Position numbers and translations under genes: made by a program
The notes under the pieces: model-generated
What the model saw: the letters and a program-made list of their open reading frames with translations, nothing else
What the model was told of the DNA's origin: nothing
Databases searched by the model: none
DNA from: Mycolicibacterium sp.
GTDB taxonomy: Bacteria > Actinomycetota > Actinomycetes > Mycobacteriales > Mycobacteriaceae
Direction of reading: 5' to 3'
DNA: 64,000 nt
Assembly: GCF_016462545.1 (NCBI RefSeq)
Contig: NZ_JAEMTA010000020.1
Span: 28,079 to 92,078, forward strand
Shown here: positions 3,101 through 64,000 of the stretch, one piece after another
How positions within the stretch are numbered: position 1 is the stretch's first letter
Layout: every line of letters starts with the position of its first letter

Positions 3101-6100
3101 ATGACGCTGACCACGCCGAAGCAGCTTCGAAAGTCGACTTTCCGGTGGGTGCCCGCCGCCGCGGGCTGGCTCGTCGGCGTCATTGCGACACTGTCGCTGA
3201 TCGCGAGCATCTCGCCGTTGGTGCGGTGGGCCATCAAGGTCCCGCGCGAGTGGGTCAACGACTACATCTTCAACTTCCCGGACACCAGCTTCGCCTGGGC
3301 GTTCGTGCTGACACTGCTCGCGGCAGCGCTGGCGGCCCGCAAGAGCGTGGCGTGGTGGATTCTCGTCCTCTACATGGTCGCCGCGATCGGCTGGAACGTC
3401 GCCGACCTGTCCACCGGCCCCGAGTCGGTCATGGAGGACGTCGGTGAGGTCATCGGCCTCGGCTTTCACGTCGCGGCAATTGCCTTCCTGGTGCTGGCGC
3501 GCAAGGAGTTCTGGGCCCGGGTCCGCCGCGGCGCCCTAATCAAGGCCGCCGCGACACTGGCGGCCGGTATGGCGATCGGCATCCTGATCGGCTGGGGACT
3601 GCTCGAGATGTTCCCGGGATCCCTCGACCGCGACGAGCGCCTGCCGTACGCCGCCAACCGGGTCGTGGTCTTCGCCGGGGTCGACGCCGACGCGTTCTCC
3701 GGTCACCACCCGCACGTCTTCGTCAACGCACTGCTCGGCCTGTTCGGCGCCCTGGCGCTCATGGTGGCAGCCATCGTGCTGTTCCAGTCGCAGCGGGCCG
3801 AGAACGCACTGACCGGTGAGGACGAGTCCGCCATCCGCGGAATGCTCGAAGTGTGGGGCAAGAACGACTCACTCGGATACTTCGCCACTAGGCGGGACAA
3901 GTCGGTGGTCTTCGCGCCCAACGGCCGAGCCGCCATCACCTACCGGGTCGAGGTCGGCGTGTGCCTCGCCAGTGGCGATCCCCTCGGTGATCCGCGAGCC
4001 TGGCCAGCCGCCATCGGTGCCTGGCTCACGCTGTGCCAGTCCTACGGCTGGGCACCCGGGGTGATGGGCGCGAGCGCGACGGCCGCCCAAGCCTTCCGCG
4101 AGGCCGGTCTCAACGCCCTCGAACTCGGCGACGAGGCCATCCTGTACCCCGACCGCTTCAGGCTGTCCGGACCCGACATGAAGCCGGTGCGCCAAGCGGT
4201 CACCCGCGCACGACGCGCAGGGCTCACGGTGCGCATCCGCCGCCACCGTGACCTCCTGCCGGAGGAAATGGCCAGGGCCACGCAGCGCGCGGAGGATTGG
4301 CGCGACACCGAGACCGAACGCGGATTCTCGATGGCGCTGGGCCGACTCGGCGATCCGGCCGACGGCGACTGCATGCTGGTCGAAGCCGTCGATCAGCAGG
4401 ACGAAGTGGTCGCCATGCTGTCGCTGGTGCCGTGGGGCACCAACGGCGCGTCGCTGGATCTCATGCGGCGTTCGCCCCAGTCGCCCAACGGCACGAACGA
4501 GCTGATGGTCAGCGAGCTGTGCCTACAGGGCGAGGACATCGGCATCAACCGAATCTCGTTGAACTTCGCCATGTTCCGCTCGGCGTTCGAGGAAGGCGCG
4601 CAGCTGGGTGCAGGTCCGGTCGCGCGGCTGTGGCGTGCCCTGCTGGTGTTCTTCTCGCGCTGGTGGCAACTCGAGACGCTGTACCGATCCAACATGAAGT
4701 ACATGCCCGAATGGGTGCCGCGCTTCGCCTGTTACGAGGATGCCCGACTGGTCCCCCGCGTCGGCATCGCATCGGTGATCGCCGAGGGATTCCTGGTGCT
4801 GCCCTTCAGCCGGCGCACCAAACAGCATACGGGTCAACACATCTCGGCACCCGAGACGCTGGTCAACTCCGGCCGATTACAGCACGATGGTAGCGCGCCC
4901 GACCTGACCGGACTCGGACTCGAAGGGCCGGCCGACGAGGTCGTCCACCGGCTCCCGGAGCAGGTCAGAGTCCGGATGGCCAAGCTAAAATCGTTGCAGG
5001 ACAAGGGCATCGATCCCTATCCCGTCGGCAGGGCACCCAGCCACACCGTGGCCCAGGCGCTGGAGACCTCCGGTCAGGAGGTCACCGTGTCCGGTCGCAT
5101 CCTGCGGCTCCGCGACTACGGTTCGGTGCTGTTCGCCGATCTTCGCGATTGGTCCGCCGAAACCCAACTTCTGTTGGACAACTCGCGGCTGACCGACGGC
5201 AACACCGCCGACTTCACCAACGCCATCGACCTCGGCGACCTCGTCGAGGTGACGGGCACCATGGGTGCCAGCAAGTCCGGCACCCCGTCTTTGCTGGTGG
5301 ACCGTTGGCGGCTGATCGGCAAGTGCCTTCGCCCGCTGCCCGACAAATGGAAGGGCCTCACCGATCAGGAGGCGCGGGTCCGCACCCGCTACGTCGACCT
5401 GGCCATCAACACCGAATCCCGCGACCTGATCCGGGCTCGAAGCAACGTCCTGCACGCGATCAGGGAGACGTTGTTCGCCAAGGACTTCCTGGAAGTCGAG
5501 ACCCCGATCCTGCAGCAGATCCACGGCGGCGCGAACGCGCGTCCGTTCATCACCCACATCAACGCCTACGACCTCGATCTCTACCTGAGGATCGCGCCGG
5601 AGCTCTACCTCAAGCGGCTTTGTGTCGGTGGTGTGGAACGAGTCTTCGAGCTTGGCCGCGCCTTCCGCAACGAAGGCGTCGACTTCAGCCACAACCCCGA
5701 GTTCACGCTCCTGGAGGCCTATCAGGCGCACGCCGACTACAACGTGTGGATCGACGGCTGCCGCGAGCTGATCCAGAATGCGGCATTGGCGGCCAACGGA
5801 TCACACGTCGTGATGCGGCCACGGGAGGACGGCAGCCTCGAGCCCGTCGACATCTCCGGTGAGTGGGCCGTCAAGACCGTGCACGGCGCCGTCTCCGAGG
5901 CGCTCGGTGAGCACGTCGACACCGACACCGATCTGACGACCCTGCGCCGCTATGCCGACGCCGCCAAGATCCCGTACCAGACCCACTGGGACCCGGGCGC
6001 CGTCGTCCTCGAGATGTACGAGCACCTCGTCGAGGACAGCACTGAGAATCCCACGTTCTACAAGGACTTCCCCACGTCGGTGTCGCCACTGACCCGACCG

Positions 6101-60191: not shown

Positions 60192-60268
60192 GCCCTCGTA
60201 TCCCAATTGGCAGAGGAAACGGATTCAAAACCCGTGCAGTGTGAGTTCGAGTCTCACCGAGGGCACCA
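60192..60268 (+). tRNA. tRNA with anticodon CAA (Leu), short variable loop; integration site
   Basis: The 77-base gene includes an encoded CCA. The acceptor stem GCCCTCG/CGAGGGC is perfect, with discriminator A. The T arm is GTGAG TTCGAGT CTCAC. The anticodon loop is TTCAAAA (CAA), on a stem ACGG(A)/(C)CCGT with one A-C mismatch next to the loop. The codon read would be UUG (Leu). The variable region between the anticodon and T stems is only about 5 bases (GCAGT), whereas bacterial tRNA-Leu normally has a long arm, so the identity is not certain. A tyrosine integrase gene begins 92 bases downstream, which points to this tRNA as the attachment site. Confidence 0.8.
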
Positions 60269-60360: not shown

Positions 60361-61695
60361 ATGTCGACGACCAGGCGCGGATCCCGTGCAGGAGTAGAGG
60401 ACCGCTGGCACCGGCCAGCCCGTAGGAGCGAGGAAGTCCGGTATCCCGCCGACGTCAGTCCAGGTGAGCCGACGTGGTGCATGGACGCCAAGCACGGCAC
60501 CCCCGGCACCCTGGTCTGCACGGGTCGTCACGGACAGGGCCACCGCTGGCAGGCCCGTTGGGTCGGCGAAGGCGTGGAGCGGTCCAAGAGCTTTGCCAAG
60601 AAGGCCGATGCTGAGAGGCAGTTACGCGGCGTGGTCGCCGACCTGGAAACCGGCACCTACGCCGACCCCCAGCGCTCCGCAGTGACGTTCGAGACCGTGG
60701 CCGAGTCCTGGCTCAAGACAAAGCAAGCCACCAACCGCGCACCCAAGACCATCGCCGGATATAGAGGTCTCCTCGACGTCGTCATCCTGCCCAAGTGGCG
60801 TGACGAGCGCCTGCGCGACATCACCCATGAGCGCCTTCAGGACTGGACCACCTGGTTGGCCTCCGACCCGACGGCACGTCAACACAAGAAGAAGGGGAAG
60901 GAGGATGCCGGCCTGTCCCCTGCCCGCGTGATCCAGGTTCACCAGGTGGTGTCTCAGGTCCTCGGCTTCGCCCTGCGGTCCAAGTATGTCGCCACCAACG
61001 CTGCCGACCACATCGAGCTGCCGAGCAAATCGCAGAGCAAGGACCTCGCCCTGAGTCACGATCAGGTGCACCGTCTGGCCGAGGAAACGGCCAACGCCGA
61101 GAAGGCCGTTCGCTACCGCAGCGACACCACCTCGCCCCAGACACCCCCTCAGGCCCTCGGCACCATGGTGCGATTCCTCGCCTACACTGGACTGCGCTAC
61201 GGCGAGTGCACCGCACTTCGGGTCAGCGACGTCGACACGACCAAGCGCCGCGTAACGGTCGGCAAGTCAGTGACCCAGGTACGCGGCCAGGGGCTCGTCG
61301 AGGGTGACACCAAGACTCACCAGCGCCGGTCCGTACCGATCCTGACCACCGCTCTAGTCGAGGAGTTGCGCTTACTCGTCGAGGATCGTGACCCCTCGGA
61401 GTACCTGTTCCCCGGTCCCGACGGTGGCCCGATGGCCATCGGGTGGTTCCGGGTGCGGTTCGACCGGGCCGTCCGCAAGCTCGGCGTGCCTGGTGTCACC
61501 CCGCATACGTTGCGACACTCCGCCGGGTCACTTGCATTGGCCTCCGGTGCCTCCATCGCCACAGTGCAGAAGCTCCTGGGTCATCGGAACGCCACGACGA
61601 CGTTGAACGTCTACAGCCACATGCTGCCCGACGACTTCGACAACCTCGCCGCTGCGATGGACTCCGCTGCCCGCAAGGCCTCGACCAGCGCCTAG
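60361..61695 (+). CDS. int: tyrosine-type site-specific integrase
   Basis: The 444-residue phage-type recombinase inserts and excises the element. The N-terminal part has an arm-binding-like segment (RWVGEGVERSKSFAKKADAERQL), then the core-binding helices (TFETVAESWLKTKQATNRAPKTIAGYRGLL). The catalytic domain keeps all residues: Arg in TGLRYGECTALR, His-x-x-Arg in TPHTLRHSAGS, the second His in LLGHRNATTTLNVYSH and the nucleophile Tyr in VYSH. It is therefore probably functional. The start ATG 60361 has TAAGAT 6 bases upstream. It is oriented away from the tRNA. Confidence 0.95.
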   Translation: MSTTRRGSRAGVEDRWHRPARRSEEVRYPADVSPGEPTWCMDAKHGTPGTLVCTGRHGQGHRWQARWVGEGVERSKSFAKKADAERQLRGVVADLETGTYADPQRSAVTFETVAESWLKTKQATNRAPKTIAGYRGLLDVVILPKWRDERLRDITHERLQDWTTWLASDPTARQHKKKGKEDAGLSPARVIQVHQVVSQVLGFALRSKYVATNAADHIELPSKSQSKDLALSHDQVHRLAEETANAEKAVRYRSDTTSPQTPPQALGTMVRFLAYTGLRYGECTALRVSDVDTTKRRVTVGKSVTQVRGQGLVEGDTKTHQRRSVPILTTALVEELRLLVEDRDPSEYLFPGPDGGPMAIGWFRVRFDRAVRKLGVPGVTPHTLRHSAGSLALASGASIATVQKLLGHRNATTTLNVYSHMLPDDFDNLAAAMDSAARKASTSA

Positions 61696-61882: not shown

Positions 61883-62131
61883 ATGGGTGCACACCCAATT
61901 TCGTCGCACTGCCCGCACTGCTCCCAGGTCGATCCGCCCGACCGCATGACTACGGGCGAAGCCGCCCGCTATACAGGCGTGGCCGAATCGACACTTCGTT
62001 ACTACCGGCACGCCGACATCGGCCCCGCGTCCTACGCGATCCGCACCAAGGTGTTGTACGACCGCGCCGACCTCGATGCGTGGATTGCCGCGCAGAAGGC
62101 CGCGAGCCTCCGTGGCGGTGACGTCGCGTGA
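61883..62131 (+). CDS. excisionase-like helix-turn-helix (MerR/HTH_17 type) protein
   Basis: The 82-residue protein has a winged-helix DNA-binding segment MTTGEAARYTGVAESTLRYYRHADIGPASYAIRTKVLYDRADLDAWIA, the usual pattern of phage excisionases and HTH_17 proteins. The first 20 residues include CPHC and could bind zinc or be dispensable; a start at the ATG of MTTGEAA is the alternative. It probably guides the integrase toward excision or controls the downstream operon. Its TGA overlaps the GTG of the next small ORF. Confidence 0.82.
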   Translation: MGAHPISSHCPHCSQVDPPDRMTTGEAARYTGVAESTLRYYRHADIGPASYAIRTKVLYDRADLDAWIAAQKAASLRGGDVA

Positions 62132-62253
62132 ACGCCTCCCCCCTCACACAGGCCGACCGTGACGTCGTCGAGGACGTCGGCCTGGCCGACCTCGACGACC
62201 GCGTCGGTCAGGGTCCGCACGCCGTGCACGCCGAGGAGGCGATGCCGTCGTGA
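62128..62253 (+). CDS. acidic micro-ORF (41 residues)
   Basis: This ORF is too short for the ORF track. It starts at a GTG overlapping the excisionase stop (GTGA) and ends in a TGA overlapped by the next GTG. The peptide is strongly acidic (DRDVVEDVGLADLDDRVG). Two successive stop-start overlaps support translation, but no family is known. Confidence 0.5.
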   Translation: MNASPLTQADRDVVEDVGLADLDDRVGQGPHAVHAEEAMPS

Positions 62254-62384
62254 CTGAACGAACGAGCCGCCCCGGCGAGGAGATCACCGGAGCGGCCCAG
62301 ATGCCCGAGTCAGGAGCTATCCGCAATCTTACCCCCCAGGGGTATGCGTGGGCACGGTTGGTGGTGGCCCATGTCCGAACTTGA
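62250..62384 (+). CDS. micro-ORF (44 residues) coupled to the ATPase gene
   Basis: It begins at the GTG overlapping the previous stop and ends inside the ATPase gene, 14 bases past its ATG. The peptide ends GYAWARLVVAHVRT and is basic at its C-terminus. Coupling on both sides argues for real translation. The function is unknown. Confidence 0.45.
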   Translation: MTERTSRPGEEITGAAQMPESGAIRNLTPQGYAWARLVVAHVRT

Positions 62385-63885
62385 ACACAAGGTCCTGTCC
62401 CGGATGCTGGACCCAGGCGACATCGCCACCGTGGCCGCAGCTGGCATGTCCTCCAAGGCATTCGAGGACCTCAGCTGCCGCGCCGCCTATGGATGGATGC
62501 TCGAACGCTGGCGGGCGGATGGGACGCCGCCCACCACGATGATGATGGGCAATGAGTTCCCTACGTTGAAGCTCGACGCCAAGGTCGACGAGCCCGTCGG
62601 GTGGATGGTCGCCGCGTTGCAGCAGCGCTACACCGTCAATCAGGCCCAGGACGTCATGCTGACCGCGTCCAAGACTCTCGACGCCGATCCTGAGGCTACC
62701 GTCGTGGGCCTGCGCAACGCCCTAGACGACGTTCTGAGACAGTCGGGGACTGCACCCGGCCCGACGCTCTACACCGACGTGGGGGCGATGCTGGACGACG
62801 CCCTGCCTGAGGCTCCGCACCCCGAGGTGCTGACCCGCGCCGACGGGGTGCCCCTGTTCTATCGGGGTGAGGTCAACTTGTTGTTCGGTGACCCCGAGCA
62901 CGGCAAGACGTGGATCGGCCTGGCCGCGTGCGCCGAGGTGCTGGCCTCCGGTGGCCGCGTCCTGGTGGCCGACATCGACCACAACGGCGCGCAGGCCATC
63001 GTGTCGCGCCTGTTGCTGCTCGGCGCGCCGAAAGAGTCTCTGCGCGATCGTGACCGGTTCCGGCACTGCGAGCCCGCCGAGGTTCCCGACGTCGTGCGGA
63101 TGGTCGCCGACTGCGCCAGCTGGACACCCGACGTCGTGATGGTCGACTCCACCGGCGAGTTGCTGCCGATGTTCGATGCCAACAGCGACTCCGGCGACGA
63201 CTTCACCCGCGTGCACGCCCGTGTACTGCAGCCGCTGGCCGACCTCGGCGCGGCGGTGCTGCTCGTGGACCACTTGGCCAAGGGCAAGGACTCACGCGCA
63301 CTCGGTCCCGGCGGCACGATGGCCAAGCGCCGCACCGTAGGTGGCCTCTCGCTGCGCGTCGTGCGAGAGCGTCCGTTCACCCGCACCGGGGGCGGATCGG
63401 CGCGCCTGTTGGTCAACAAGGACCGCCACGGCGGGGTGCGCGACCACTGCGCCGCCCCACGCCCTGGCAAGGACAACGACGAGCAGCTGGCCGGGACGTT
63501 CGTACTGGACGCCAACGCCGACGGCTCCACGTGGCTTGTGGCACCCCCGCAGGCCGACGCCAGCGGAGCCGGTGAGGAGTTCCGGCCCACGCTGCTGATG
63601 GAGCGTGCCAGCCGCTTGGTCGAGGACAGGCCACGAGCGTTGACGCGCAACCAGATCGCCGAGGAGACGCAGGGCAAGAAGGCCACGTTGCTGCTAGCCG
63701 TGGACCTCTTGGAGCGCGAGGGCCACTTCACCAAGAGCGAGGACAGGCCGCAGAGATACACCTCGGCGAGGCCCTACCGGCAAGCCGAGGACCCACGGGC
63801 GCAGTCCCACATGCCGATGGCAGACCGCCTGCGGCGACACCAGGGCGACCAGGAAGAGCAGACCGGAGGCCAGGACGATGACTAG
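62371..63885 (+). CDS. RepA/DnaB-like AAA_25 ATPase (replication helicase-like)
   Basis: The 504-residue ATPase has a RecA-type core. The N-terminal region (SELEHKVLSRMLDPGDIATV, then AFEDLSCRAAYGWMLERWRADG) resembles the DnaB N-terminal helical domain. The core has Walker A GDPEHGKTW, Walker B VVMVDSTGEL, and the sensor LLVDHLAKGKDSRALGPGGTMAKRR, matching plasmid and phage RepA-like helicases. The C-terminal 120 residues look like a winged-helix domain (LTRNQIAEETQGKKATLLLAVDLLEREGHF) and could bind the repeat array downstream. The likely job is autonomous replication of the excised element. The ATG at 62371 is preferred; the ORF start at 62344 adds nine unlikely residues. Confidence 0.86.
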   Translation: MSELEHKVLSRMLDPGDIATVAAAGMSSKAFEDLSCRAAYGWMLERWRADGTPPTTMMMGNEFPTLKLDAKVDEPVGWMVAALQQRYTVNQAQDVMLTASKTLDADPEATVVGLRNALDDVLRQSGTAPGPTLYTDVGAMLDDALPEAPHPEVLTRADGVPLFYRGEVNLLFGDPEHGKTWIGLAACAEVLASGGRVLVADIDHNGAQAIVSRLLLLGAPKESLRDRDRFRHCEPAEVPDVVRMVADCASWTPDVVMVDSTGELLPMFDANSDSGDDFTRVHARVLQPLADLGAAVLLVDHLAKGKDSRALGPGGTMAKRRTVGGLSLRVVRERPFTRTGGGSARLLVNKDRHGGVRDHCAAPRPGKDNDEQLAGTFVLDANADGSTWLVAPPQADASGAGEEFRPTLLMERASRLVEDRPRALTRNQIAEETQGKKATLLLAVDLLEREGHFTKSEDRPQRYTSARPYRQAEDPRAQSHMPMADRLRRHQGDQEEQTGGQDDD

Positions 63886-63910
63886 GGCCAGAAGCCTTCT
63901 GATGCCAGGA

Positions 63911-63993
63911 CGTTCCCCGTTCCCAAGACGTTCCCCGACGTTCCCAGGAACGCCCAACCCCGAGGCGTTCCCCCTATAGGGGTGGGGAACGCC
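63911..63993. repeat. GTTCCC iteron-like array with nested palindromes (candidate origin)
   Basis: CGTTCCC occurs at 63911, 63918, 63929, 63939 and 63966, and inverted (GGGAACG) at 63985. A 10-bp inverted repeat GGCGTTCCCC/GGGGAACGCC (63964-63993) encloses the perfect palindrome CCCCTATAGGGG (63971-63982). Several repeats are spaced by about 7 to 11 bases. The array begins 26 bases after the ATPase stop and may continue beyond 64000. Similar iteron arrays serve as origins or regulatory sites in small replicons. Confidence 0.65.
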
Positions 63994-64000
63994 CTATGGG

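Follow-up and report, generated by a model that had tools for sequence, protein, structure and literature searches.

A repeat array directly after a RecA-fold helicase gene as the probable replication origin of a Mycolicibacterium integrative element

The window analysed here, a stretch of 64,000 nucleotides from a Mycolicibacterium sp. genome, ends in an array of GTTCCC repeats which lies directly after rep, a gene coding for a RecA-fold protein whose C-terminus is modelled as a winged helix. Very probably, an integrative element of about 8.9 kb replicates from this array, to which Rep would bind with its winged helix. Our main evidence is the presence of similar arrays at rep in most relatives of this protein, with repeat words which diverge together with Rep.

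The integrative element and its repeat array

The element extends over two contigs: C102, which contains the window, and C15. We infer the join from the overlap of the array, the direction of the genes and the att sites; if the contigs join as proposed, the element has 8871 bp and its attR end is L004:5189. Its order is tRNA-Leu(CAA) with a 44-bp att duplication, int, xis, a 41-aa ORF, rep, the array and cargo genes:

60192–60268, + strand: tRNA-Leu(CAA), integration target, attL (ARAGORN)
60361–61695, + strand: tyrosine integrase (Pfam Phage_integrase 7e-26; PHROG integrase 5e-67)
61883–62131, + strand: excisionase-like HTH protein (Pfam HTH_17 1e-9; PHROG excisionase/regulator 1e-10)
62128–62253, + strand: 41-aa ORF (54% identity to the ORF preceding rep in L066)
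62371–63885, + strand: rep, alternative start 62344 (Pfam AAA_25 1.5e-7, AlphaFold2, fold match)
63911–63946, + strand: left iteron set, CGTTCCC four times in direct orientation with a spacing of 7–11 bp
63947–63951, − strand: partial inverted copy GGAAC
63964–63993, no strand: hairpin, arms GGCGTTCCCC (63964–63973) and GGGGAACGCC (63984–63993) around CCCCTATAGGGG (63971–63982); inner 24 nt inverted with respect to C15 and L037
64000: end of contig C102; the array carries on in contig C15 (L004:1-91)
L004:267-635: HTH protein, next C15 gene with a recognised domain (HTH_17 just below the cut-off)

The 44-bp att core (60224–60267) is repeated at C15:5146-5189, where 40-mer matches span 44 bp. 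A 37-mer from the 3' end of the tRNA has exactly two copies in the genome, C102:88309 and C15:5153, both in the same orientation. An integrase adjoining a tRNA gene whose 3' end is duplicated corresponds to what is found in tyrosine-integrase elements. No empty site was recovered in relatives; the sequence past attR is not conserved at full length in the 40 relatives searched. A tRNA-Leu(CAA) also adjoins the integrase in one relative with different iterons, ATGGACA (L043:6105-6179).

The cargo in C15 includes, besides the HTH protein, an ion-channel protein (L004:4006-4866), a DUF732 protein (L004:2590-3219) and proteins without family (L004:632-862, 869-1654, 1710-2243 and 3133-3996). Among the scanned proteins of the element, none could be assigned as a relaxase, capsid or terminase protein. 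None of the eight C15 proteins, several of them without family, has a packaging match in PHROGs, and the only match obtained when the cargo was scanned for defence systems is a weak HTH one.

Rep has a helical N-terminus, a RecA-fold (AAA_25) motor at residues ~133–390 and a C-terminal winged helix at ~405–464 (residue numbers refer to 62374–63882). Its sequence matches in PDB are RecA and a RAD51 paralogue. In the AlphaFold2 model the RecA-like core has mostly high confidence, the N-terminal helices low confidence. A fold search with the whole model, to which all these fold matches refer, finds RecA/RAD51 and the helicase domains of T7 gp4 and Twinkle. The winged helix has been assigned from the order of the modelled elements: residues 405–464 are predicted as helix-helix-helix-strand-strand, with block means mostly between 80 and 90, and this is the order of a winged helix. 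Two Rep relatives (L050, L062) have an N-terminal PrimPol domain.

GTTCCC starts at 63912, 63919, 63930, 63940 and 63967, always in the + strand, and the single full inverted copy, GGGAAC, at 63985: the span is 63912–63990. The five direct copies and one inverted copy in 80 bases of the original prediction are thus found at exact positions, and its statement that they are far from random holds. The density of GTTCCC across the window is 0.45 per kb, which as a rough estimate gives a Poisson chance of 2.7e-12 for six copies in ~80 bp, or ~4e-6 when all hexamers and positions are allowed for. Over all 90-bp stretches in the window, this score is not exceeded by another hexamer. Three CGTTCCC with gaps of 20 bp or less are found nowhere else in the 6.25-Mb assembly. 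The genome contains another GTTCCCC..GGGGAAC palindrome (L005, G000:C94:12184-12201); a Rep relative was not found in the surrounding 20 kb.

The 12-bp palindrome nested in a 10-bp inverted repeat is also present as described, and the single-stranded fold of 63886–64000 has z = -4.2 against shuffles. More repeats follow past 64000: C15 starts within the same array, and ACCCCGAGGCGTTCCCC is common to both contigs in direct orientation. The hairpin stretch (about 24–28 nt; 63967–63990) is inverted in C15, with one extra GTTCCCC, and two further GGGAAC follow (C15:49, 86). In the closest relative, which is from Mycolicibacterium hippocampi (L037 and L125 are one contig), the order is C15-like. 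The final ~35 nt of the window therefore probably result from misassembly at the hairpin; a true inversion is possible. Since the contig ends inside the array and C15 inverts the last ~24 nt, the orientation of the hairpin at the window end is unreliable. The palindrome itself is found in the window, C15 and L037 alike.

Arrays and repeat words in Rep relatives

We have compared 109 distinct Rep relatives, from Mycolicibacterium, Mycolicibacter, Rhodococcus, Nocardia, Gordonia, Dietzia, Tsukamurella, Micromonospora and others. An array was defined as at least five copies of one 7-mer per 250-bp stretch; the score is that of whichever 7-mer does best, which was decided once the data had been seen. 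By this measure, 60 relatives have an array that overlaps the rep stop or lies immediately 3' of it, a further 23 elsewhere in or adjoining rep, and 26 have none. Away from rep, just 76 of 34,054 tiles reach six copies. In the first set, whenever the 300 nt downstream of rep contain at least five copies, the locus has the lowest p value that 200 shuffles allow (0.005). Of the 60 3' arrays, 14 contain a hairpin with a stem of at least 7 and TA in its loop (0.75 expected from shuffles), as do 2 of the 49 other loci. A hexamer seen in the middle of the array in several relatives, AGGTCA, shows no clear enrichment (11/60 vs 6/49, forward strand).

The same layout is found outside integrated elements. 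The Streptomyces plasmid p-XQ-29-C (a complete linear record of 7.9 kb) has eight CCTGCCC directly 3' of rep, the Kineococcus plasmid pKRAD02 (12.9 kb, circular) has nine GGGAACC across the rep end, and phage MinS1 (a 50-kb record) has ten GGGACGA directly 3' of rep. The plasmid status of the first two is the depositors' claim, and the pKRAD02 repeats could be partly a coding effect, since they overlap the coding end of rep. The original prediction was of a replication origin or a site for the winged-helix tail; the array is placed at rep in the majority of the relatives, and likewise in the two plasmids and the phage, which supports both, probably as one and the same thing.

In the first set, mostly 87–138 residues follow the motor when there is a 3' array, and mostly 63–83 when there is none, with exceptions on both sides. 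Many short-tailed Reps have a GGTTCC-type array inside rep, about 1100 nt before the stop, which is possibly an intragenic origin. In L038–L042, L098–L100 and L126–L133, GGTTCC-type repeats are found in the 5' part of rep, and aligned members have VPGS/EPGT-like peptide repeats.

The repeat word varies by locus: GTTCCC, TGTCCAT, GGGCACG, AAATCACG, GCTCCCTT and more, or, as 7-mers, CGTTCCC, ATGGACA, CGTGCCC, CGAACAA, TCGGACA, AAATCAC, AGGGAGC and others. That about sixty relatives have the same layout with different words suggests a word specific to each helicase. A change of word goes with a change of Rep, and neither with int and xis nor with a common Rep N-terminus. For example, L092 resembles the window in integrase DNA (77%) and xis DNA (73%), yet its Rep is only 28% identical and its iterons are AGGGAGC. 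L066 has in common with the window the N-terminal 186 aa of Rep (49%) and the small upstream ORF; its motor and tail are different, and its array is GCTCCCT. These two cases argue that the array belongs with the motor-tail half of Rep. In some natural chimeras, motor, tail and word switch together. A 31-nt GTTCC cluster resembling the array of the window, TGTTCCCCGTTCCCTGGCGTTCCTGGGAACG, lies just 3' of the L066 array, possibly as a relic of cassette exchange.

Whether the tail alone sets the word is less clear, the data being suggestive only. Like tails go with like words despite distant motors in L052/L064 (AAATCAC), and the GTTCC-core group (the window and L037 with L118, L062, L072 and L119) also has like tails with distant motors. 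In the first 40 loci, the covariation of tail and word looked strong (partial Mantel r = 0.16, 0 of 2000 permutations), but in 59 loci the effect is weaker (r = 0.07, matched or exceeded in 173 of 5000), so we regard a dependence on the tail independent of the motor as no more than a suggestion. In the larger set, motor similarity predicts the word at least as well (partial 0.13), and the nearest tail neighbour has a word match of 4.07 vs 3.70 (Wilcoxon p 0.03).

Alternative explanations and known systems

Other functions may be considered for the array. It might be an operator, through which Rep or an HTH protein of the element controls the downstream C15 genes with no role in replication. 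The next C15 gene with a recognised domain does encode an HTH protein, and iterons often regulate rep as well. Nevertheless, operators do not usually comprise at least six copies and a hairpin; in addition, a different Rep comes with a different word, and plasmids and a phage have the layout too. A purely regulatory role is improbable, while an array serving as both origin and operator is possible. It is even harder to accept that the hairpin is merely the rep terminator and the repeats a by-product. There is a strong fold directly 3' of rep, but a terminator scan predicts none at the hairpin, and a terminator needs neither direct repeats of one word nor words specific to each locus. Termination may be a second function of the hairpin, whose job (opening site, priming site or rep terminator) is the least certain part of our proposal. 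With int, xis and a 44-bp att core present in the element, the array might also be arm-type or att DNA for the integrase or excisionase, the most remote of these explanations: it lies 3.6 kb from attL, and L092 retains closely related int and xis with a different array.

The origin reading has precedents for an arrangement of rep and iterons (PMC7581432, PMC6092414, PMC4234260). As in iteron origins, several copies of a short repeat adjoin the gene of a putative cognate initiator. In SaPI/PICI elements, which also have int and xis, and in SCCmec Cch2, an initiator helicase gene is directly followed by short iterons (PMC7581432, PMC6092414), which are recognised by the C-terminal domain, as we propose for Rep. 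This arrangement works as an origin in SaPI and SCCmec, which by analogy favours the same role for our array, a putative origin immediately 3' of rep. In PICIs the origin, also 3' of rep, has an AT-rich region with an iteron set on either side (PMC6092414), whereas the window array has no AT-rich centre: its AT content is 0.35, vs 0.34 in the element, and the most AT-rich 40-mer (0.55) begins 337 nt past rep, outside the array. The SaPI and Cch2 helicases are DUF927 or D5-type, while Rep is a RecA-fold AAA_25 protein. Since the layout is common but helicase family and AT-rich centre differ, we consider that the system would work like a SaPI/PICI origin without being a member of that class.

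Other systems have some of these features. The IncQ plasmid RSF1010 (RepA/RepB/RepC; background and PMC4234260) likewise combines iterons with a hexameric helicase of the RecA type, but distributes these steps over separate proteins, with RepC reading the iterons; in the window, helicase and putative DNA-binding domain form one protein. A winged helix is also part of two other replication proteins, ORF904 of pRN1 and alpha of phage P4; a stem-loop located 3' of rep is required by pRN1, and P4 alpha binds repeats at its own origin (PMC4234260). Nevertheless, the pRN1 stem-loop has ~100 nt, iterons are absent from this plasmid and its helicase is SF3, and P4 alpha has a Toprim-type primase. The candidate Mycobacterium PICIs and phiRv1/phiRv2 are also small integrated mycobacterial elements, some in tRNA genes and some with helicases; the candidate PICIs are defined by a capsid gene, absent among the recognised proteins of our element, and iterons are not mentioned for them (PMC10654092). 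The RepA mycobacteriophage replicons are extrachromosomal and have a RepA-like protein, but this has 320–350 aa and an N-terminal HTH, and repeated motifs were not seen in those regions that the authors studied (PMC7157519).

A possible replicon family

In the proposed mechanism, the C-terminal winged helix of Rep would bind the GTTCCC iterons, the RecA-fold motor would assemble as a ring on the DNA next to them, and Rep would unwind the adjoining DNA. Host enzymes would then copy the excised circle, allowing autonomous replication. That the word changes with Rep and that its C-terminus is modelled as a winged helix are consistent with the tail as the reader of the array. Our literature search, limited to open-access papers, found for this Rep family neither assays (of binding, helicase activity or replication) nor a description of iterons. 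The chances are about even that these genes represent a largely undescribed actinobacterial replicon family: a RecA-fold helicase with its own winged-helix initiator domain and a fast-diversifying iteron word, in which motor, tail and iterons are swapped as one cassette, with the iterons inside rep in some members. Such a family would span integrated elements, small plasmids and some phages.

In summary, the array is a likely origin of replication for a class of mobile elements which recurs in actinobacteria, and suggests that the layout of rep followed by iterons also exists with a helicase fold other than that of SaPIs. The approximately sixty natural pairs of putative initiator and origin, with their different words, make a recognition rule for the winged helix testable, and could yield compatible laboratory plasmids for M. 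smegmatis.
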